Source: an uncultured Bacteroidia bacterium (GTDB taxonomy: Bacteria > Bacteroidota > Bacteroidia > Bacteroidales > UBA932). From it: DNA of 52,738 nucleotides. Both the position numbers and the translations under genes were made by a program. The DNA lies in NCBI GenBank assembly GCA_902788095.1, contig CADAIT010000017.1, positions 1 through 52,738 on the forward strand. Direction: 5' to 3'. The number at the start of each line of letters is the position of its first letter. Position 1 is the stretch's first letter. A model generated the notes under the pieces. The model saw only the letters and a list, made by a program, of their open reading frames with translations. It ran no database searches and was not told the origin of the DNA. Positions 23,493 through 35,499 of this stretch are shown piece after piece.

Positions 23493-23500
23493 TATCTTTG
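23493..23500 (+). promoter_or_regulatory. -7 element of the GNAT/ligase gene
   Basis: TATCTTTG begins one base after the ubiE stop codon and ends 17 nt before the ATG at 23518. Confidence 0.6.
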
Positions 23501-23517: not shown

Positions 23518-26163
23518 ATGAAACCTGAAACCATCATTGTGCCCGTTTCCGGCAAGGGCATGCTCAAGGAATTTATCGAATTTCCGCTCGAGTTATACAA
23601 AAACTGCGACAAGTGGGTGCCTTCTTTTGAAAGTGATGAATACAGTACACTGGGTCCGGACAATCCCTCTCTGGCTTTCTGTGAGCGGGAACTGTTCCTG
23701 GCCAGGCAGAACGGGAAAACCGTAGGCCGCGTAGCCGCCATCCTGAATAAGAAGGCCAATGAAAAGTGGAAGGAGAAGTCGGTCCGCTTCGGCTGGATAG
23801 ACTTTATCGAAGACTTCGACGTGTGCAAGGCCCTCATCGACACTGTCATTGCCTGGGGACAGGAACGGGGTGCGGAAAAAATCAAAGGCCCCCTGGGCTT
23901 CACGGATATGGACCGGGAAGGCCTGCTGGTAGAAGGCTTTGAGAACGAAAGCCCCTTCACCGTCATTTACAACTACCCTTATTATCCGGAATACCTGGAG
24001 CGCCTGGGCTTCACCAAGGATGTGGACTGGACGCAGCGTGTCCTGAACGTGCCCGAGGAAAAGCCGGCCATGTTCAATTTCGCGGACCGCATCTCGGAGC
24101 GCTATGGCATCCGTATCTATCGGGCCAACTCCATCAAGCAGATGGCCCGCCGCGGCCGGGAAATGTTCCATGTCCTCAATGAGGCCTTCGCCGGCCTGTA
24201 CGAATATACCCAGCTGTCGCAGGACCAGATAGACGGCTATGTGAAGCAGTATGCTCCCGTCCTGGACAAGGACCTGGTGGCTTTTGTGGTGAACGAGAAA
24301 GACGAACTCATCGGCTTTACCGTGACCATGCCGCATATCTCCGCCGCCGTCCGCAAGGCCAGAGGCCGCATTTTCCCCTTCGGCTGGATTCACCTTCTTC
24401 CGGCGCTTTCGCCCAAGCGGAACGACACCACCGAGGCCCTGCTCATCGGCATCCTTCCGGCCTATCAGGCCAAGGGGGCGGCGGTGCTCATGTTCAATTA
24501 CCTGCTGGAGAATTACCACCGGCTGGGCGTCAAGCACATGCTCCTGAATCCGCAGCTGGAAGAAAACCATAAGGTGCAGTCGCTCTGGGACAATTTCGAC
24601 ACCCGGATGTACCAGCGCCGCCGTTCCTATGTAAAAGATATTAAAACCCATAACCCTAAACGTATGACTTCCCAAGAGTATTTCCAGAACCTGCTCCCCA
24701 AGGAGGAGTTTGAGCGTCTGCCGTATCTGCCCACCATGGGGCAGTTCGTGGACTGGTTCACCAAGGAGTATGCTTCCTTGCCGGCCCTGTCGGATTTGAC
24801 AAACACCATTACTTACAAGGAATTCGGTGAGCGTATCGCCCGCCGTCGTGCCTTCATCGGCAGCCTTGGCCTGCCCAAGGGTGCCCATATTGCCGTTTTC
24901 GACCGTAACAGTCAGGACGCCATCGAACTGTATTATGCCATTACTTCCGCCGGCTATGTGGCCATGATGTTCCCTTCCTCCCTGCCTGAGCAGGCCGTGA
25001 TCGGCTGCTGCATGAAATTTGACATCGCCGCCATCTTCGTGCGTGAGGAATTCATGCCGCTGACCGCGAATATCCAGGGCACCAAGGTGCTTCCTGCCGC
25101 TTCCATCGCGGAGGAAGGCGTTCCCGTGGCTGCCGACATCGACCCGGAAAGCCCCGCCGCCATCTTCTTCACCGGCGGCACCACCGGCGCTCCCAAGGGT
25201 GCCGTCCTGAGCCATCGCGCCCTCATGAGAGGCAACTACAATACCATCTTCAAACCCGGCAAAACCATCGGCGTACACCGCTATATCGCCCTGCTGCCGC
25301 TGAGTCACGTGTTCGGCAACGTGGCCGGACTCTCCGGGTGCTTCTACACGGGCAACCTCATGTACACCTGCGAGGACATGAAGGCGACCATCGGCAAACT
25401 GTCTGTAATCAAACCCACCCTTCTGGTCATCGTACCGGGCATCTGCGACATCCTGAGCGGCCTGGTGAAAATGTATGGCGCACAGTTCCTGGGCGGTTCG
25501 CTCCGCCTGATTATCGCCGGCGCCGCCAACGTGCCGCCGCGCCTGGTGGACATCTTCACCAAGCTGGGCGTGGAATTCTGCTTCGGCTACGGCCTTACGG
25601 AAACCGCCAACCTTACCAGCGCCAATGCCAACGCCATCGAGAAACCCACTTCCATCGGCCGCATTTATCCCGGCCAGGAAGCCAAGTTCGTGGACGGCGA
25701 GCTGCTTATCAAAGGTGACAATGTGTTCTCCGGTTATTACAAGGATCCGGAGCGCACCGCGGAAGCCTTCACGGAAGACGGCTGGTTCCGCACCGGCGAC
25801 CTCTGCCATATGGACGAAGACGGCTTCGTGTACATTACCGGCCGCATCAAAAACCTCATCATTCTGCCCAACGGCGAAAACGTGAGCCCGGAAAGCCTGG
25901 AGGAACCCTTCTATGCCGACCCTTGCGTGCGCGACGCCATGGTGAAAGAGGACGAACTGAACGGCGCCCAGGTAATCGCCATCGAAATTCTGCCCTTCAT
26001 GCCTGCCTTCGACGGCAAGCCGTTCGAGGAGGTGGAGGCCTATATGAAGGCCTTGGTGGACAAGGTGAACGCCACCCTGCCCAGCACCCATCAAATCCGT
26101 AAGGTGACGGTACGTACGGAAGATTTCAAGCGTACGGGAAGCATGAAGGTGGCCCGCGTATGA
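23518..26163 (+). CDS. GNAT-like acyltransferase fused to an acyl-adenylate ligase
   Basis: An 881-residue two-part protein. Residues 1-380 match a large Bacteroidetes GNAT-like family (FCERELFLARQNGKTVGRVA, FGWIDFIEDFDV, GPLGFTDMDREGLLVEGF), which normally ends near RRRSYVK. Residues 383-881 are an AMP-binding acyl-CoA/acyl-ACP synthetase-type domain: TGGTTGAPKG (552-561), FGYGLTE, WFRTGDL, GRIKNLIILPNGENVSPE and a catalytic Lys877 in RTGSMKVAR. The junction (24628-24666) is AT-rich with TAA triplets in the other frames and an ATG at 24664, as if an old intergenic spacer had become coding. The stop overlaps the start of an acyl carrier protein gene, so the ligase probably loads that ACP and the GNAT domain may use the acyl group. 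Product unknown. Confidence 0.88.
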   Translation: MKPETIIVPVSGKGMLKEFIEFPLELYKNCDKWVPSFESDEYSTLGPDNPSLAFCERELFLARQNGKTVGRVAAILNKKANEKWKEKSVRFGWIDFIEDFDVCKALIDTVIAWGQERGAEKIKGPLGFTDMDREGLLVEGFENESPFTVIYNYPYYPEYLERLGFTKDVDWTQRVLNVPEEKPAMFNFADRISERYGIRIYRANSIKQMARRGREMFHVLNEAFAGLYEYTQLSQDQIDGYVKQYAPVLDKDLVAFVVNEKDELIGFTVTMPHISAAVRKARGRIFPFGWIHLLPALSPKRNDTTEALLIGILPAYQAKGAAVLMFNYLLENYHRLGVKHMLLNPQLEENHKVQSLWDNFDTRMYQRRRSYVKDIKTHNPKRMTSQEYFQNLLPKEEFERLPYLPTMGQFVDWFTKEYASLPALSDLTNTITYKEFGERIARRRAFIGSLGLPKGAHIAVFDRNSQDAIELYYAITSAGYVAMMFPSSLPEQAVIGCCMKFDIAAIFVREEFMPLTANIQGTKVLPAASIAEEGVPVAADIDPESPAAIFFTGGTTGAPKGAVLSHRALMRGNYNTIFKPGKTIGVHRYIALLPLSHVFGNVAGLSGCFYTGNLMYTCEDMKATIGKLSVIKPTLLVIVPGICDILSGLVKMYGAQFLGGSLRLIIAGAANVPPRLVDIFTKLGVEFCFGYGLTETANLTSANANAIEKPTSIGRIYPGQEAKFVDGELLIKGDNVFSGYYKDPERTAEAFTEDGWFRTGDLCHMDEDGFVYITGRIKNLIILPNGENVSPESLEEPFYADPCVRDAMVKEDELNGAQVIAIEILPFMPAFDGKPFEEVEAYMKALVDKVNATLPSTHQIRKVTVRTEDFKRTGSMKVARV

Positions 26164-26402
26164 CCAGAGAAGAAGCATTTGACGGCCTGAAGGAAGTGAT
26201 AGCCGTCATCCGTCCCCATACGGACCTTTCCAAGGTAACCTATGACTCCGAACTCATCCGCGACCTGGGCATTGATTCCCTGACCATGCTGCTGCTTGCG
26301 CTGGCTTCGGAAGAGAAATTCCAGATTCGTTTTCCCGACGGCATGCAGCCCCGGACCGTGGGCGAGGTATGCGACGCCGTCGTCGCCGCGAAAGGAAACT
26401 GA
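26160..26402 (+). CDS. Acyl carrier protein
   Basis: An 80-residue acyl carrier protein. The phosphopantetheine attachment motif is GIDSLTM with Ser40, preceded by ELIRDL and set in the usual four-helix arrangement. It starts inside the stop codon of the ligase fusion (ATGA overlap), so the two are made together. The sequence differs from the housekeeping AcpP of fatty acid synthesis, which argues for a dedicated carrier. It is followed by a terminator. Confidence 0.9.
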   Translation: MTREEAFDGLKEVIAVIRPHTDLSKVTYDSELIRDLGIDSLTMLLLALASEEKFQIRFPDGMQPRTVGEVCDAVVAAKGN

Positions 26403-27514: not shown

Positions 27515-27544
27515 TCACTCAAAGTATAAACAGAGTACTTGATT

Positions 27545-29734
27545 ATGAATAAACATTTCTTGCCGTGCGTTCTGCTGCTCAGTTTACTGGCCGGATGCAC
27601 CGCGGAGAGTCCCGGAGGCCCTGTTTCGTCTGATGAAGGCGCCATCCGGCTCACCCTTTCACAAGAAGTGCCGGGAACGAAATCCGATCTGGAGGACCTG
27701 CCTTCCCTGGACGATTTCGAGGTGGAAATCTACAATACGAACGCCATCCGGCTCTATCGGGACACATACGCCCGGGCCAAAGACGCTACCATCAAGCTCA
27801 ATGCCGGCGAGTTCCGGCTGGTCGCTCACCACGGAGATACCTTGGGCGCCGGATTCGGAAAGGCCTATTTCCTTGCCGACCAGGCATTTACAGTACATGG
27901 CTATGTAGAAAACAACGGCCAGCCGGACCAGGTGTCCGCTACGGCCCGCCTGGCCAACGTGCGCATGCGCGTGCAGCTGGGGAACAGCCTTCGTACAAGC
28001 TACAAGGACGCCTACGTCGTTGTCCGCCATGCCCGCTACGCCGGGAAGCAGGTCAAGTTCACCCGGGACGAAACCCGCTACGGGTACATGCCCGGCGGCG
28101 AACTCTACCTGGAAGTCTATGCACAGCTCTTTTCCGACGAGTGGAAGTATTACAAGAGCGAAGCGACGGAGTACCTTCCCAACGACAATGTCACCTTTAA
28201 CGTGGAGGCCGCCGGCCGCGACGGCTCCCTTTCCGTGAGCATCGCGGTGGACCGCAGCGTGGAAACCATCGAAGTGACGGAACTCATCGGAGAAAACGCC
28301 CTTCCCGCGCGCGCTCCTTATTTTGTCTTCGACGGAGACAAGGATGGGACGTTCGCCTACAGCTGCAACGCCGGTCTCACCAAAATCGTGAACGATGCCA
28401 TCCTCACCCTGAGCGCCGGTGCCAGCACCAGCATCAGCAGCGTGACGATGCATACGGAATCGGCCTTCGTAAGCCTTCCGGACGTGGATTTGGTATCCGT
28501 TTCGGGCACTGACAAGCAGCGTCTCACGGATGCCGGTCTGGACTGGATGGCCGGCAATACCAGCAATTTGGGCTATGTGGACTTCAACGGTCTCGTCAAC
28601 CGCATGCTGGAGAGCGGCAGCGCCTGCTCGGCCACCTTCACCCTGACGCTCACCGATGGCGTCGGGCAGACGGTGGAGGGTACCATCGTGCTGGATGTGA
28701 AGCCTTTCCGTGCAAGCGTGAACATCCCCGCCGGGAACATCTGGGCCTGGAAAATGACGGATGTCACCGCCACCGTGGCCGATGTGGACGCCATTCCCGC
28801 CGATGTCCCCATGGGCCTGCAATGGAGCACCGACGGCAGCTCCTGGAGCACGGAAAAAGCAGCGGTGTCTGTGAGCGGGAACACCCTCCGCTTCGGCGAC
28901 ATCGCCGGCCTGACCCCTGCTACGGCCTATCGCTTCCGCGTGGTACCCATGCACCAGACGGACCGCGCTTCCGTAACCGCCGGGACCTTCACCACCGAAG
29001 CCGCCCAGCAGGTGGGGAACAGCGGGTTCGAGGAGATTACGGCACAAAGTTATACTACTCCCGTCGCGATTGTCAGCGACTTCAAGGTTACCTGGTGGCA
29101 GCTGTACGGCAATGCTTCCAATGCCTGGTGGGGCGTCAATGCCATGCGGACCATCGAAGACGGCCGGATGGCGACAGGCTATCAGGACTACAAGACCTAC
29201 CCTTGCGTGGCCGTGTTCAATTCCGGCTCCTATTCCGGAAACAGCGTGATGCTGGCCACTGTCTATATCGGCAGTTCCGTGGCATCCGAGGTGAAGCACG
29301 GCGACACCAATTATCCCGGTGAAATCTTCCTGGGGACGGCCAACAACAAGAACAAAGGCTCCTGGGCCAAGACTTCCGAGGGCCATGCTTTCTCCAGCCG
29401 TCCGTCGGCCCTGTCCTTCATGCATCGCTTCAACCCCAACGGAGCGGCCTATTATGCCCAGATTCAGGTGCTGGACGCCTCCGGCAATGTCATCGGAACC
29501 GGTGAAAAGAACGACGGAACGGCGGCGGTGGACGCCTGGACAAGGGTGAACATTCCCGTCACTTATACCGTTACCGACCGGAAAGCCGCTTCCATCCGTA
29601 TCAGCATCCGCTCCTCCAAGGACGGAGGGGAAGAAGCCCGGAAACTGGACGGCATCTCCACCCTTTCCGGCTCGCACAAAATTTACTGCGGCAACGCCCT
29701 GTATGTGGACAACGTAGAACTCCTTTACCAATAA
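27545..29734 (+). CDS. Surface lipoprotein with DUF4493, Fn3-like and PCMD-like domains
   Basis: A 729-residue predicted lipoprotein (signal LLLSLLAGCTAE, lipidated Cys). Residues about 30-230 resemble DUF4493 (IRLTLSQEVPGTKSDLEDL, FEVEIYN, AGEFRLVAHHGD). A region near 400-490 is Fn3-like (GLQWSTDGSSWS, TAYRFRVVP). The C-terminal 240 residues resemble the PCMD (putative carbohydrate metabolism) beta-domain, ending ALYVDNVELLYQ. These domains are known mainly from Bacteroidetes surface lipoproteins of unknown ligand. The TTG at 27539 is also in frame, but the ATG at 27545 gives the proper signal peptide. First gene of a five-gene operon. Confidence 0.82.
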   Translation: MNKHFLPCVLLLSLLAGCTAESPGGPVSSDEGAIRLTLSQEVPGTKSDLEDLPSLDDFEVEIYNTNAIRLYRDTYARAKDATIKLNAGEFRLVAHHGDTLGAGFGKAYFLADQAFTVHGYVENNGQPDQVSATARLANVRMRVQLGNSLRTSYKDAYVVVRHARYAGKQVKFTRDETRYGYMPGGELYLEVYAQLFSDEWKYYKSEATEYLPNDNVTFNVEAAGRDGSLSVSIAVDRSVETIEVTELIGENALPARAPYFVFDGDKDGTFAYSCNAGLTKIVNDAILTLSAGASTSISSVTMHTESAFVSLPDVDLVSVSGTDKQRLTDAGLDWMAGNTSNLGYVDFNGLVNRMLESGSACSATFTLTLTDGVGQTVEGTIVLDVKPFRASVNIPAGNIWAWKMTDVTATVADVDAIPADVPMGLQWSTDGSSWSTEKAAVSVSGNTLRFGDIAGLTPATAYRFRVVPMHQTDRASVTAGTFTTEAAQQVGNSGFEEITAQSYTTPVAIVSDFKVTWWQLYGNASNAWWGVNAMRTIEDGRMATGYQDYKTYPCVAVFNSGSYSGNSVMLATVYIGSSVASEVKHGDTNYPGEIFLGTANNKNKGSWAKTSEGHAFSSRPSALSFMHRFNPNGAAYYAQIQVLDASGNVIGTGEKNDGTAAVDAWTRVNIPVTYTVTDRKAASIRISIRSSKDGGEEARKLDGISTLSGSHKIYCGNALYVDNVELLYQ

Positions 29735-29740
29735 GCGAAT

Positions 29741-31006
29741 ATGAAAAAATTACTCTATATTGTCGCAGCCGCTGCCGCCGTGGCAGCCTGCGGGGCCAGA
29801 GAAAGCCTGAACGAGGGCCATGGCCATCTTTCCCTTACTGCAGTCCAGGAGGGTGTTTATTCCACCAAGGCCAACGATGTGCTGGGCGATTTCGTCGTGG
29901 ACATTGTCCGTTCCGACGGCTGGACCAAGCACTATGACCGCTACACCGACATTCCCCAGACCATTACGCTGGGCAGCGGGGAATATACCCTTACCGTGGC
30001 TTCTCCCGAGTTCCGGTATGCCGGCTGGAACCTTCCTTTTTATAAGGGAAGTGCGGATTTCACCATCCGCGTGGACGAGCTCACGCCCGTGAACGTGACC
30101 GCCGCCCTGCAGAACATGAAGGTGAGTTTCGCACTCACGGACAGTTTCAAGAGCGAACTCTCCTCCTACACCATCGTGGTTACCAATGCCGCCTCCTGGG
30201 ATGCGCCCGATGCCGGTGAAAGGAGCCTGACCTGGTCTTCCGCCACCGGTGACGTGGAGCAGACGGCCGGTTATTTTTCCGTGGCGCCGCTCCGCGTAAA
30301 AGTCGATGGCTATCGTGCCGTGGACAACAGCGAAACCCATTCTGAACTGCTGATTTCCGATGTTTCCGCCAAGGACCACCACGTCATTACCCTGGATGCC
30401 CGCGTGACCGGTCTGGTGAACGGTGTGTCCATTACCATCGACCCTTCGGTGAACGACCGCACGAGCGACGTGGAGGTGCCCGGCTGGGATGAGGTGCCCG
30501 TGGATGGCGGCGATTCCGACGACAATCCTACGGACCCGACAGACCCGACGGAAGACCCGTCCGTGAACCCGCAGCCTTCCACCGTGCCCACCATGACCTG
30601 GGACAAGAATCCCACGTTCGCCCCGACGCCCATCGCCGGGACGATGGACGTGGAGATTGTGATTGACGTTCCGGAAGGCATCCGCGACTTTGTGGTGGAT
30701 GTGGATTCCAACGTGCTGGGCGAGACGATTGCCGGACTGGCCGGTGCCAGCTATACCTACAGCCCCGATACGCCGTTCCCGATGGACCTCATCAACGACG
30801 AGGCGATGATTGCCGCGCTCAACGGCATGATTCCGGTGGGCGACCAGCTGAAGGACCAGACGACGGTGAATTTCTCCCTCTCGCAACTGGTCCCGCTGAT
30901 TGCCGTGTACACCCCCGAAAGCGGCTCGCAGCACACCTTTACCTTGAAAGTAACCGACAAAAAGAACCAGCGCCTTGAGAAGGCCGTCGTATTCTATGCC
31001 GAATAG
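29741..31006 (+). CDS. DUF4493-type lipoprotein
   Basis: A 421-residue predicted lipoprotein (MKKLLYIVAAAAAVAACGAR). Its N-terminal half resembles DUF4493 (GHLSLTAVQEG, FVVDIVRSDGWTKHYDRYTD, LGSGEYTLTVASPEF). A Pro/Asp/Thr-rich linker (NPTDPTDPTEDPSVNPQPS) joins a C-terminal domain of about 140 residues with no recognised family. Six bases separate it from the previous gene and four from the next. It lacks the PCMD-like domain of its neighbours, so it may be the accessory partner of the set. Confidence 0.8.
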   Translation: MKKLLYIVAAAAAVAACGARESLNEGHGHLSLTAVQEGVYSTKANDVLGDFVVDIVRSDGWTKHYDRYTDIPQTITLGSGEYTLTVASPEFRYAGWNLPFYKGSADFTIRVDELTPVNVTAALQNMKVSFALTDSFKSELSSYTIVVTNAASWDAPDAGERSLTWSSATGDVEQTAGYFSVAPLRVKVDGYRAVDNSETHSELLISDVSAKDHHVITLDARVTGLVNGVSITIDPSVNDRTSDVEVPGWDEVPVDGGDSDDNPTDPTDPTEDPSVNPQPSTVPTMTWDKNPTFAPTPIAGTMDVEIVIDVPEGIRDFVVDVDSNVLGETIAGLAGASYTYSPDTPFPMDLINDEAMIAALNGMIPVGDQLKDQTTVNFSLSQLVPLIAVYTPESGSQHTFTLKVTDKKNQRLEKAVVFYAE

Positions 31007-31010
31007 CCAG

Positions 31011-33161
31011 ATGAAAACCAAGTATTGCCTTGTCGCGCTGCTGGCTCTGCTGGCCTGTTCGCGCGAAGCCGACCGGTCGCAGGAGGAAGGGTATCTCTCC
31101 GTGCGCCTCTCCGCCGACCTGGGGGTGACTCCGGTCGTAAAGGCCGAGGCCGGCGAGCCCGACCCTGTCTTCTCGCTGGAGCTTATCCCGGCGAAGGGCG
31201 GCGAAACGGTTCGGATTGCCGATTACCGTACCCTGGAGAGCGAACCGATGACCTTGCCCGCTGGCGACTATACCGTCAAAGCCATTTCCGGCCCGGACAC
31301 GCGCCAGAGCTGGGATGAACCCCGTTACGAGGGCGAAGCACAGGTTACCGTCCGTCCCGACCGTCTTAGCGAGGCGACCATTACCGCCACGCTCGCCCGT
31401 ACCATGGTCACGGTGGAGTTCGATGCCGAAACGGCCGCCTATTTTTCCGAGTACCGGGTGTCCGTCGCCAACGAAAACGGCGACGCCCTGGTCTTCAGCA
31501 CGACGAACGGAAACCTCTCCAGGAAGGGATATCTGGCCGCATCGGCACTGGAATGGGACCTGTATATGGTGAATACCCAGGGAACGGTCTATCGGGTGGG
31601 GCCGGTCTCGATTGACTCCGTGGAGCCGCGTCAGCACTATCACTTCAAGTTCGCCCTGGACCGCACCCGGGCCCAGGCGGGCTCTTCGCTGCTGCGCGTG
31701 CTGGTAGATGATTCCCTGAATGCAAAATACTACCAGCTGAATCTGGACTTCACCGGCGAAGGCCTGCCTGCCATCACCGGACAGGACTTTGACCTGGCCG
31801 ACGGCATTTCCGTAAAGAAGGGCGATACGAACAGTCACAACATCGTGCAGTTCTACGCGCCCAAGGGCATGAAGTCCCTGACGCTGAGCCATAGCGACAC
31901 CAAGCTGCAGGAAGCGGGTCTGCCGCAGCATGTGCAGCTGGTCGATGCTCCCGCCGCCACGGTACAAAGCCTGACCGCCGCCGGCCTGGGCGTATCGGCA
32001 CTCAGTTACGGCGCCACGGAAACGACCGTGGACTTCGGCCCCTTCCTGGCCGCTCTTCCCATGGGCGAGTATTACCTCTCCCTGGATTTGATAGATGCGC
32101 GCAACCGTTACAGCGCCGCCACGGTGGTCCTTTCCGTGACCTCGCCGGTGGAGGCCGAGGCCGCTACCGCCAAACCCTGGGCCGAATTTGCCATCCTCAG
32201 CGGCCGTTGGTTCACCGACGGGCGTCCCGCCGGATTGCGTTTCCAGTGGAAGAAGGCAGGGGATGCCCAATGGACCGATTGCAGCGGCCCTGTCACGTAC
32301 AATGACGCCGCCGCCACCTGCAGCACGGAGCTGTACGGTCTTCAGGCTTCCACGGCATACGTATTCCGCGTCAAGACGGACAAGGACGAAGATACCCGCG
32401 AGCTGAGCTTCACCACGGCGGCCGCCGGCACCATCCCCAATCTGAACTTCGACGACTGGTACAAGGATGGAAACGCCTGGTATCCGGGTTCCGGTGCCTC
32501 CTCGCGTGTCTGGGATTCCGCGAACGGCGGAACGGCCAGTTTCGGCACGGTCCCTACCACCCCGGAAGAGTCCGCGGTGGTGCGCGGAAAAGCCGCCCGC
32601 CTGGAAAGTACGGCGGTGAAGGTGGTCGTCATCACCAAGTTTGCCGCCGGCAATGTCTATGTGGGCGACTTCGTGAAAGTGTCCGGCGTCGGTGCGGAAC
32701 TGGATTGGGGCCTTCCCTTCTCCTCCCGCCCGCTGGCCCTCCACGGCTACTACAAATACAGCCCCAAGACCATCGACTTTGCCGAGGACCCCTACAAGTC
32801 TAAGATAGGAGAGGCGGATGCCTGCTCCATCAAGATGTACCTTTGCGACTGGAGCGCCAAGTTCCGCGTCAATACCTCCAAGGGCATTTTCCTGCAGGAT
32901 GACGACCCTTCCATCATCGCCATGTGTGACTTCACCTCCAATGTGAGCACCGACGGATATGTGGAATTCACCTTCCCGCTGCAGTACCGTGACGCCCGTA
33001 CGCCCAAGTACGTGGTCATCGTAGGCGCGGCCTCCCGTCTCGGAGACTACTTCACCGGCGGCAAGGGCTCCACCCTCTGGCTGGACGAACTGTCCCTGGT
33101 GTACGACGCCGGCCAGCTTTCCGAAGCCGACCGCGAACTGGTCGGATACCGTAAACTGTAA
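31011..33161 (+). CDS. Surface lipoprotein with DUF4493, Fn3-like and PCMD domains
   Basis: A 716-residue predicted lipoprotein (VALLALLACSRE). The order is DUF4493-like (GYLSVRLSADLG, LPAGDYTVKAISGPD), a middle domain, an Fn3-like domain (LRFQWKKAGDAQW, STAYVFRVKTD) and a PCMD domain from about residue 480 (IPNLNFDDWYKDGNAWYP, RVWDSANGGTASFG, STLWLDELSLVYD). The start at 31011 gives the signal peptide and follows the previous stop by 4 bp. The PCMD part is clearly paralogous to that of the gene at 33910. The stop shares a base with the barrel gene. Confidence 0.83.
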   Translation: MKTKYCLVALLALLACSREADRSQEEGYLSVRLSADLGVTPVVKAEAGEPDPVFSLELIPAKGGETVRIADYRTLESEPMTLPAGDYTVKAISGPDTRQSWDEPRYEGEAQVTVRPDRLSEATITATLARTMVTVEFDAETAAYFSEYRVSVANENGDALVFSTTNGNLSRKGYLAASALEWDLYMVNTQGTVYRVGPVSIDSVEPRQHYHFKFALDRTRAQAGSSLLRVLVDDSLNAKYYQLNLDFTGEGLPAITGQDFDLADGISVKKGDTNSHNIVQFYAPKGMKSLTLSHSDTKLQEAGLPQHVQLVDAPAATVQSLTAAGLGVSALSYGATETTVDFGPFLAALPMGEYYLSLDLIDARNRYSAATVVLSVTSPVEAEAATAKPWAEFAILSGRWFTDGRPAGLRFQWKKAGDAQWTDCSGPVTYNDAAATCSTELYGLQASTAYVFRVKTDKDEDTRELSFTTAAAGTIPNLNFDDWYKDGNAWYPGSGASSRVWDSANGGTASFGTVPTTPEESAVVRGKAARLESTAVKVVVITKFAAGNVYVGDFVKVSGVGAELDWGLPFSSRPLALHGYYKYSPKTIDFAEDPYKSKIGEADACSIKMYLCDWSAKFRVNTSKGIFLQDDDPSIIAMCDFTSNVSTDGYVEFTFPLQYRDARTPKYVVIVGAASRLGDYFTGGKGSTLWLDELSLVYDAGQLSEADRELVGYRKL

Positions 33162-33916
33162 TGACGAAAAAATACCTCATCCTTCTTCTGGCCGCCTGTC
33201 TCGCCATTTCGGGACAGGCCCAGGAGAAGTTTACGCGCGGCTTTGCGGGAAAGAACAAGATATTCATCCCCAAGGGGAGTTTCGGCGGCGGCCTCAGCGC
33301 GTCCTGGCGCAAGTTTTCGCTGGGAGACGATGAAGGCTACACGGTGCTGTCCAAGTATATCGGCGACCTGAAAGGCGGGTACCGCTCCATCGGCGTGGCG
33401 CCCTCGTTCGAGTATTTCTTCGGCACCAACCTGAGCGCGGTGGCCCGCTTCGAGTATTCCTGGCTGGGCGTGGACCTGAACAAGGCCTCGCTGCATCTTT
33501 CGGAAGACCTGGGCCTGGATATCGCCGGACAGCATTACAAGCGGCAGTCGTATGCCCTGGCGGCCGGCGTCCGTTATTATGTGCCTTTCATGGGCAGCCG
33601 CATCTTCGGCTGGTTCGTGGAGGGGACGCTCAATGGCGGCTATGTGCAGAGCATGCTGTATGAAGAGACGGACAATCTGAAACAGGGGACATACAAAGAC
33701 AAATGGAAACTGGCTCTGCGGTTGGACCCGGGCATTTGTTTCTTCGTGCACGAGAACTTCGACTTCGAGGTGTCCGTGGGCTTGTTGGATTTCACCTGGA
33801 CAATCACCAAACAGACGGAAAACCAGGTGAAGACCAGCAGCGGAAACAGCCTGGGTACGGGACTGAACATCGACATTCTGGCCATCCGTTTCGGCGCGCA
33901 CTTTTATCTATGGTAA
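33161..33916 (+). CDS. Outer-membrane beta-barrel protein
   Basis: A 251-residue protein with a signal peptide (LLLAACLAISGQAQ) and alternating amphipathic strands ending in an aromatic residue (FGAHFYLW), as expected for a small outer-membrane barrel. It is placed among lipoprotein genes, overlapping both neighbours by a few bases, so it may anchor or export them. No specific family was recognised. Confidence 0.75.
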   Translation: MTKKYLILLLAACLAISGQAQEKFTRGFAGKNKIFIPKGSFGGGLSASWRKFSLGDDEGYTVLSKYIGDLKGGYRSIGVAPSFEYFFGTNLSAVARFEYSWLGVDLNKASLHLSEDLGLDIAGQHYKRQSYALAAGVRYYVPFMGSRIFGWFVEGTLNGGYVQSMLYEETDNLKQGTYKDKWKLALRLDPGICFFVHENFDFEVSVGLLDFTWTITKQTENQVKTSSGNSLGTGLNIDILAIRFGAHFYLW

Positions 33917-35499
33917 AACGCTGGATGAACATAGCCCTTTGCGGCATGCTGGCCGTCAGCTGCTTTTTCCCGAACGACCTGGATTATCCGCAGTTGGTCG
34001 GGGCCATCGTGGCGTTCGAGGTGGAAGATGCCAAGGAGGTCCGCATAGACGCGGCGGCGCGCGAAGTTTCCATCGTCCTGGAAGAATGGGCCGATATGTC
34101 CCACGTGAAAGTGACGTCGTTCGAAATGACGGACAAGGCCACCTGCGCCGACATCGGGGAGTGGCTGGACCTGACGCAGCCCGTGAAAGCGGTGCTGCAC
34201 ACGTACCAGGACTACGAGTGGACCATCACCGCCACCCAGCCCATCGAGCGGTATGTGCGCTGCGCGGGCCAGGCGCAGGAAGCCCAGTTCAATATGGAAA
34301 CCCGCAGCGTGTATGTGTATATGCCTGATACCAAGCCGCTTTCTTCCGTGACGTTCGAGGCGATGAAACTGGAGCCCGAAGGTTCCCGCATCGTGAGCAC
34401 CACCGGATACGAGAGCGACCTGCAGCACCTGACGCTCACCACCCGCGCCGTGTCGTTTCCCATGACGCTGGACTGCGTCACCGAACGGAGTTTCTTCGTG
34501 GAATGGAAGGGGGAAATGATTGAGTGGCGCCTGAAAGCCTTGCAGCTTAAAGTAAGCACGGCCGTGAGCGAGGTGGACGCCCACTGCTACTCGGCCCGTG
34601 TGCGCGGGGTGTTCGCCTCCGACGGCTCGGACGTGGGCGTGGAGTACAAAAAGGCCGACGAGAGCACCTGGACGGCCGCTACGGAGGTTTCCGTGTCGGG
34701 GGTGGGGCTTACGGCCCGCCTGACGGGACTTACGCCCAAGACGGCCTACGAGTGCCGGGTGCGGGACGGGGAGGAAGTATCGGCCCCCATGCCTTTTGAA
34801 ACGGGAGAGCCGGTGCAGCCCGCCAACCTGAACTTCGATGCCTGGCATGCCAACGGGAAGGTATGGAACCCGTGGGAAGAGGGCGGCGTGCAGGTTTGGG
34901 ATTCCGCGAACAAGGCCACGGCCTCTTTCACCGGCAGTGCCACCATGCCCGACGATTCCTTCGTGGCGGTGGCCGGCGAGGGCAAGAAAGCCTGCCGGAT
35001 GGAGAGCAGCTATGCCGTGGTGAAATTTGCCGCCGGCAGCGTGTTCACCGGACAGTTCGTGAAACTGCAGGGCCTGGGTGCGGAGTTGGCCTGGGGCCTT
35101 CCCTTTACCGCCAAGCCGGTTTCGCTGAAAGGCAGCGCCGCATACAAGTCCACGCCCATTACCGACACCGATGGCGCCCACGCGGCCCTGAAAGGCCAGC
35201 CTGACACCGGGCACATCCTGATAGCCCTTACCGACTGGGCGGACCAGTTCCATGTCGTCAGTTCCAACAGTACGTATGTGGACTTCGACAACGATCCGGC
35301 CATCATCGCCTATGGCCGATACGCCCTCTCGGAAACCACCGACGGATACGTTCCATTCGATATTCCGCTTACGTACCGCAGCGACCGGACTCCCAGATAT
35401 CTGGTGATTGTCGCTTCATCCAGCGCCCTGGGCGACTATTTCACGGGCGGGCGCGGGAGTACCCTTTGGGTGGATGAGTTTGAGCTCGTGTACGACTGA
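33910..35499 (+). CDS. PCMD-domain lipoprotein
   Basis: A 529-residue predicted lipoprotein (IALCGMLAVSCFFPNDLDYP). It lacks the DUF4493 domain and begins with an Ig-like region (VGAIVAFEVEDAKEVRIDAA, SSVTFEAMKLEPEGS), then an Fn3-like domain (VGVEYKKADESTW, TPKTAYECRVRDG) and a PCMD domain (NLNFDAWHANGKVWNPW, VWDSANKATASF, GSTLWVDEFELVYD). The start is the ATG at 33910, overlapping the barrel gene by 7 bases; a longer upstream frame is only its shadow. Last gene of the operon. Confidence 0.82.
   Translation: MVKRWMNIALCGMLAVSCFFPNDLDYPQLVGAIVAFEVEDAKEVRIDAAAREVSIVLEEWADMSHVKVTSFEMTDKATCADIGEWLDLTQPVKAVLHTYQDYEWTITATQPIERYVRCAGQAQEAQFNMETRSVYVYMPDTKPLSSVTFEAMKLEPEGSRIVSTTGYESDLQHLTLTTRAVSFPMTLDCVTERSFFVEWKGEMIEWRLKALQLKVSTAVSEVDAHCYSARVRGVFASDGSDVGVEYKKADESTWTAATEVSVSGVGLTARLTGLTPKTAYECRVRDGEEVSAPMPFETGEPVQPANLNFDAWHANGKVWNPWEEGGVQVWDSANKATASFTGSATMPDDSFVAVAGEGKKACRMESSYAVVKFAAGSVFTGQFVKLQGLGAELAWGLPFTAKPVSLKGSAAYKSTPITDTDGAHAALKGQPDTGHILIALTDWADQFHVVSSNSTYVDFDNDPAIIAYGRYALSETTDGYVPFDIPLTYRSDRTPRYLVIVASSSALGDYFTGGRGSTLWVDEFELVYD

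Follow-up and report, generated by a model that had tools for sequence, protein, structure and literature searches.

A gene in the window, a stretch of 52,738 nucleotides from an uncultured Bacteroidia bacterium of the order Bacteroidales (GenBank assembly GCA_902788095.1, contig CADAIT010000017.1, positions 1 to 52,738), joins an N-terminal tandem-GNAT N-acyltransferase of the YghO/bCerS-like type to a C-terminal acyl-AMP ligase, and the gene of an acyl carrier protein (ACP) follows it directly. Ligase, ACP, and GNAT are a conserved three-part module of uncultured gut Bacteroidales, which is fused in some species. We propose, with a probability of roughly 0.57, that the fusion protein is a self-loading N-acyltransferase, which would activate a fatty acid, load it on its own ACP, and N-acylate a sphingoid base.

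The open reading frame (ORF) of the fusion occupies positions 23518..26163 of the forward strand (881 amino acids), and the ACP ORF (26160..26402, forward strand, 80 amino acids) overlaps it by ATGA. The ligase half (24664..26163) has an AMP-binding fold, an A3 motif, and a catalytic C-terminal lysine. Pfam assigned AMP-binding to residues 415-741 with 163.7 bits; the A3 motif FFTGGTTGAPKG corresponds to residues 550-561, and DFKRTGSMK to residues 869-877 including the catalytic Lys877, which was invariant in an alignment of 10 ligase homologues. The predicted model of this part had a middling mean pLDDT of 75.9, and Foldseek agreed with the ligase fold. The ACP gave a PP-binding match (PF00550, 25.2 bits against a cut-off of 20.8), and its D39-S40-L41, with Ser40 as the attachment site, was invariant among 10 aligned ACPs. 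The original prediction, made from the letters alone, had described an 881-residue fusion with an ATGA-overlapping ACP gene and had located the A3 motif, Lys877, and Ser40; both ORFs and all of these residues were found in their places. Five PP-binding matches including the window ACP were detected in the window's own genome, two of the others in short ORFs (85 and 88 codons). Because other carriers exist in this genome, a dedicated ACP for the fusion is plausible, and the window ACP is probably such a protein. A large ORF of 2406 codons in the same genome (G000:C14:44840-48043) carries two PP-binding matches and is perhaps a non-ribosomal peptide synthetase or polyketide synthase. Upstream of the fusion, a candidate promoter element, TATCTTTG (positions 23493-23500), directly adjoins the stop codon of ubiE and lies 17 bases ahead of the fusion gene; it fits the Bacteroides -7 element TAnnTTTG, although a chance match is possible.

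The tandem-GNAT part comprises residues 1-375 (23518..24642, forward strand). It matched E. coli BL21 YghO over the full length by BLASTP (27% identity over 375 columns, E 4e-43) as well as by hhalign (probability 100, E 2.1e-39). Pfam found a weak Acetyltransf_1 match at residues 239-357 (25.8 bits, cut-off 20.7). A GNAT-like domain had been predicted at residues 1-380; the GNAT homology held, but the part is a tandem (double) GNAT and not a single domain with an extension. Two Acetyltransf_1 stretches were found in four of five scanned proteins, and one in the window's own protein. The whole-length top Foldseek matches of the model (mean pLDDT 76.8) included 2wpw and 7q3a, both titled as tandem GNATs, with a TM of about 0.55-0.6, and a PDB sequence search with this half returned a single match with E 0.13. 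In the GNAT tree, 13 cassette GNATs formed one clade (99/98) with those of G010 and G014, two genomes in which the ligase-ACP pair lies on a different contig from the GNAT. A wider clade (95/94) added five other paralogs and a GNAT of genome G047 that stands between serine palmitoyltransferase (SPT) and an epimerase. The window's genome also encodes GlsB as a separate gene (NF053696, 407 bits against a cut-off of 300). Since GlsB handles glycine N-acylation in this genome, we rejected a glycine lipid as the likeliest product. The lipoamino-acid product suggested by the original prediction likewise became less likely, given this separate GlsB, the YghO homology, and the neighbours and co-occurrence pointing to sphingoid bases.

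These neighbours were scored with the SPT family model NF047600 (cut-off 640 bits). In genome G047, SPT (677 bits) is followed 5 bases downstream by the GNAT gene and then by the NAD-dependent epimerase-like gene, which matches the BL21 epimerase with E 3.6e-34. In G055, SPT (681 bits) is followed by two GNAT genes, a HisC-like aminotransferase gene, and a gene weakly matching CDP-alcohol transferases. These genomes belong to two other Bacteroidales families, and G616 to a third; in the latter, ligase, ACP, and GNAT are convergent with genes of a short-chain dehydrogenase/reductase (SDR) and of SPT, which scored over the cut-off (654.9 bits), and an MMPL transporter and a LolA-like protein lie beyond them. 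The window's own genome encodes an SPT over the cut-off (660 bits) and an SDR sharing 41% identity with the SPT-adjacent SDR of G616. SPT over the cut-off was also present in 12 of the 13 other genomes with the fusion, 93-99% identical to that of the window's genome, and the remaining one, G244, has a partial SPT match at a contig start.

Co-occurrence was examined in a sample of 400 genomes of the same genus. In the genomes of good quality (completeness of 90% or higher, contamination of 5% or lower), an SPT-like gene matched at E 1e-150 or better in 38 of 42 genomes with the ligase and in 42 of 108 without it (odds ratio 15). Of the four ligase genomes left over, G223 and G244 gave partial matches to SPT (404 and 374 bits, respectively). 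This count with the family model replaced a first one, made with one SPT protein and a fixed E-value, in which any SPT-like match was found in 81 of 111 genomes with the ligase and 113 of 289 without, and matches of at least 70% identity in 54 of 111 and 32 of 289, respectively.

The ligase was present in 111 of the 400 same-genus genomes. The arrangement around it was compared in 81 loci, namely the window and 80 named loci (the best 80 of 323 encoding matches). An ACP gene lies within 400 bp of the ligase end in 76 of them, and just upstream of the ligase in two of the remaining five (L140 and L142); a GNAT gene lies within 8 kb in 74. GNAT is convergent with ligase-ACP in 52 loci, fused in 11, divergent in 6, colinear but separate in 3, and downstream on the same strand in 2, whereas 7 have no GNAT within this distance, some of them at contig ends (e.g. 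L086, L113, and L152) and others not (e.g. L109 and L143). Across 19 mapped loci, the module occurs in several different chromosomal settings with changing orientation, and the genes between the cassette genes (FAD oxidoreductase, ResB-like) showed no consistent presence. The original prediction had reasoned that these parts could activate a fatty acid, load a carrier, and transfer the acyl group, and the fact that ligase, ACP, and acyltransferase genes stay linked in several families lends support to such a putative route. By their titles, 22 of the 80 named loci carry an RGIG label and 4 a deer label (ruminant host), 35 carry RUG, which we take to mean rumen uncultured genome, and 19 name no host.

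Several loci hold further genes or a second copy. An FAD-dependent amine-oxidase-like oxidoreductase (PF01593) stands beside or inside the cassette at L106:10914-12368 and L124:9740-11206, and its family was found in five loci. A transporter-like membrane protein (family F19), which resembles the AtoE short-chain fatty acid transporter by eye only, is encoded near the cassette in L140, L142, L144, L147, and L154, a subclade with other cassette orientations, and in eight loci overall. The metagenome-assembled genome (MAG) RGIG9187 (L075 and L119; cf. G294) contains two cassettes, one fused and one convergent, for which MAG contamination is possible, and G128 has two ligase copies.

Outside the genus, the acyltransferase beside the ligase-ACP pair changes. 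In a sample of 295 genomes of the order, the ligase was found in seven including the window's own, and an ACP gene adjoins it in all six outside the genus. In two of these (G039 and G616), a GNAT gene adjoins the ligase, and both genomes have SPT over the cut-off. In the other four (G053, G479, G619, and G684), which belong to four other families, a PlsC-type acyltransferase (PF01553) adjoins the pair instead of GNAT; none of the four has SPT over the cut-off or an SPT-like match above 352 bits. The pair thus appears, from six genomes only, to be an acyl-supply unit that is combined with different acyltransferases. In G684 (L201:7745-10934), ligase-ACP is located between two acyltransferases (PF01553 and PF19576/PF01553), the second of which is followed by a gene that is CDP-alcohol transferase-like by eye, similar to the glsB neighbourhood of the window's genome (L073).

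The fusion junction was traced in the same-genus sample with a 117-residue peptide, which matched in 112 of the 400 genomes. In 14 of them no stop interrupts the junction, and in 10 of these 14 the open frame is 883-892 codons long. In one of the 14, G005, the frame is broken inside the ligase by a run of N in the assembly. GNAT and ligase genes are separate in most relatives. The original prediction had allowed that the halves might prove always separate and unlinked, with a frameshift in this assembly; the fused frame in 14 of 400 genomes rules out such a frameshift as the source of the fusion. In colinear unfused relatives, a GNAT stop, a short spacer, and a ligase ATG are found where the fusions have a linker. 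The linkers vary in length and are all in frame; that of the window, residues 376-382 (24643..24663, forward strand), is probably a former intergenic spacer. The Met383 codon (24664..24666, forward strand) stands where the colinear relatives have the start codon of their ligase gene and is a possible internal start. These relatives and the retained methionine support the predicted origin of the junction from a spacer. Because Met383, at the former ligase start, was kept in nine of nine aligned fusions, a separate ligase product is possible. Both halves seem to be constrained by purifying selection: across five pairs with the window, dN/dS was 0.06-0.09 in the GNAT and 0.07-0.08 in the ligase, rough values with synonymous sites near saturation, and 0.10-0.35 in the 26-residue junction.

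In the ligase tree of the named loci (82 rows), the fused label requires at least two changes. With a subset of 26 rows, a clade of the 10 fused ligases without the unfused L087 was rejected (p-AU 0.00075), whereas a clade including L087 was not (p 0.465), and the GNAT tree recovered the fused proteins with L087 (100/99). The test omitted the partial L089 and, for GNAT, also L091, in which the GNAT is in pieces. Since the clade including L087 was not rejected by the ligase data and was recovered by the GNAT data, one fusion followed by one later separation in L087 is simpler than two independent fusions, which we set aside. The fusion seems fairly young.

The ligase half is nearer to Aas than to AasR, the acyl-ACP synthetase of the rhodobacterial sphingolipid genes. 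It scored 113 bits against the Aas synthetase domain and 64 bits against AasR, so that we did not regard it as an AasR member, and its core was 32% identical to E. coli Aas over 283 columns. Acyl-CoA ligases were its best matches among both protein families and PDB structures; the PDB entries named acyl-ACP synthetase, 8hsy and 8jyl, also matched (E 8.7e-24), and we take both to be V. harveyi AasS. E. coli Aas has an N-terminal acyltransferase and a C-terminal AMP-binding synthetase in the same order as the fusion. In the available part of the source, Aas is described as a single chain with an N-terminal transferase and a C-terminal acyl-ACP synthetase (PMC11416262). The transferase of Aas, however, is a PlsC-type O-acyltransferase (PF01553), whereas the fusion carries a tandem GNAT and is followed by an ACP gene, and accordingly it is not an Aas member. 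The stand-alone acyl-ACP synthetases, AasS of Vibrio harveyi and Aas1/Aas2 of Alistipes, are AMP-ligases like the ligase half and load ACP with exogenous fatty acid, but they acylate the housekeeping ACP; the Alistipes enzymes, which are named in the accessible text of PMC9386255, are set apart here by description and not by sequence.

The rhodobacterial sphingolipid genes offer the other comparison. In E. coli BL21, yghO is divergent from an annotated fatty acyl-AMP ligase gene, after which come an epimerase/dehydratase, ACP, and spt; GNAT and ligase are arranged alike in the six divergent loci. CC_1154 of Caulobacter is presumably the gene called bCerS. The module of these bacteria (YghO/CC_1154 (aca, bCerS), AasR, AcpR, and Spt) resembles the cassette in its homologous N-acyltransferase, the neighbouring ligase and ACP, and the presence of SPT in the genome, whereas its genes are separate and its AasR belongs to another branch of AMP-ligases. 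As far as the consulted part of that study goes, yghO/CC_1154 is an N-acyltransferase gene required for dihydroceramide biosynthesis in Rhodobacteria (PMC9386255). GlsB, which acts with GlsA in the glycine-lipid synthesis of Bacteroides according to the portion of the review available (PMC10191378), is likewise a lipid N-acyltransferase of Bacteroidota, but it belongs to a different family, has no ligase fusion, and is encoded elsewhere in the window's genome.

Taken together, these findings suggest the following mechanism. The ligase half would convert a free fatty acid, scavenged or recycled, and ATP to acyl-AMP, a step that is well founded on its motifs though predicted from them. The acyl group would then pass to the phosphopantetheine arm that Ser40 of the next gene's ACP carries, as the gene linkage suggests. 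The tandem-GNAT half would take it from acyl-ACP, its probable donor, and use it to acylate the amine of a sphingoid base, either 3-ketosphinganine or sphinganine, that the genome's own SPT provides, forming a (keto)dihydroceramide; homology, neighbours, and co-occurrence point to this acceptor. The fusion would keep activation and transfer together and the acyl pool apart from the housekeeping ACP and CoA. There is perhaps an even chance that the enzyme is an N-acyl counterpart of Aas making ceramide with a private ACP, as part of a wider ligase-ACP module with a swapped partner, GNAT where sphingoid bases are made and the PlsC type where they are not.

A number of observations weigh against a self-loading N-acyltransferase of sphingoid bases. 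SPT is not adjacent to the cassette in the window's own genome, and the co-occurrence figures are raw genome counts that ignore kinship. Two of the 42 ligase-bearing good genomes, G230 and G357, have no SPT-like match that scores higher than Kbl/BioF relatives do. In the first count, SPT matches below 70% identity showed no association with the cassette (27 of 111 against 81 of 289, p 0.53), and some SPT-like genes below the cut-off could be other alpha-oxoamine synthases. The identity of YghO to every compared Bacteroidales GNAT paralog was about equal (22-30%), so that the cassette clade is not singled out; paralogs of the family also occur in genomes without detected SPT (e.g. G013), and the ceramide synthase of the window's genome could be a second family member, C2:61232, whose surroundings showed no evident lipid genes by eye. 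Moreover, in the text at hand of PMC9386255, the YghO-type enzyme is termed a presumed acyl-CoA N-acyltransferase, and AasR/AcpR feed SPT and not the N-acyltransferase.

The presence of several GNAT-family paralogs in many genomes, including those without detected SPT, and the two ligase genomes without convincing SPT would fit the same self-loading mechanism acting on another amine, such as an amino acid, a lipid head group, or a polyamine, to form an N-acyl-amine lipid. As glycine is already served by the separate GlsB, and as this explanation leaves the linkage and co-occurrence with SPT unaccounted for, we consider it a minor though appreciable possibility. The rhodobacterial precedent suggests instead that ligase-ACP might feed SPT, as AasR-AcpR does, or general phospholipid synthesis, with the GNAT fusion providing co-expression without channelling, and the pair indeed stands beside a PlsC-type gene without GNAT in four other families. 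However, the fusion to an acyltransferase and the swapping of partners point to the neighbour as the consumer, and those four carriers lack SPT over the cut-off; such a role is rather unlikely.

The acceptor might also be capnine or another product of an SPT-like enzyme (sulfonolipid route), at least where the SPT-like gene falls below the SPT cut-off. Of the 194 same-genus genomes with an SPT-like match, 86 were over the cut-off and 108 below it, the latter genes, where listed, being mostly 53-58% identical to the SPT of the window's genome. Yet the low-scoring group is the one without cassette association, and nearly all fused genomes, the window's own among them, have SPT over the cut-off, which makes this acceptor quite improbable. 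That the fusion is an assembly or annotation artefact, or has no consequence, we regard as scarcely credible: the genomes are draft MAGs, one fused ligase contains the N gap, and the genes are separate again in L087, but the fused frame recurs in 14 genomes with in-frame linkers of differing length, and dN/dS is far below 1 in both halves.

Elsewhere in the window, past the ACP gene and an AraC-type regulator, positions 27539-35499 encode a run of large proteins that by eye resemble secreted proteins or lipoproteins; nothing in this run hints at a role in lipid synthesis.

The available parts of the literature give a partial picture of ceramide formation in Bacteroidota. According to a 2024 study, Bacteroidetes SPTs use acyl-CoA and a dedicated acyl-ACP supply belongs to Rhodobacteria (PMC11324152). 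In the accessible text of a 2023 review, the reductase of the Bacteroides dihydroceramide route is treated as identified, a bCerS is described from Caulobacter, and no ceramide N-acyltransferase of Bacteroidota is named (PMC10191378). A 2022 Bacteroides paper, in the part available, treats ceramide synthase as an activity already identified, with reference to Stankeviciute et al. (PMC9278070). No description of the fusion or the cassette was found in the literature searched, including the available portions of PMC11324152, PMC11087976, PMC9386255, PMC10191378, PMC9278070, and PMC11416262; an earlier proposal of YghO-like proteins of Bacteroidota as ceramide synthases is possible.

A fused ligase and N-acyltransferase with its own ACP provides a concrete gene, donor, and acceptor to examine. 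Unlike unfused operons, the fusion itself indicates which enzyme is likely to consume acyl-ACP, and it suggests that fatty acids of the host or its diet could enter the sphingolipids of gut bacteria directly.

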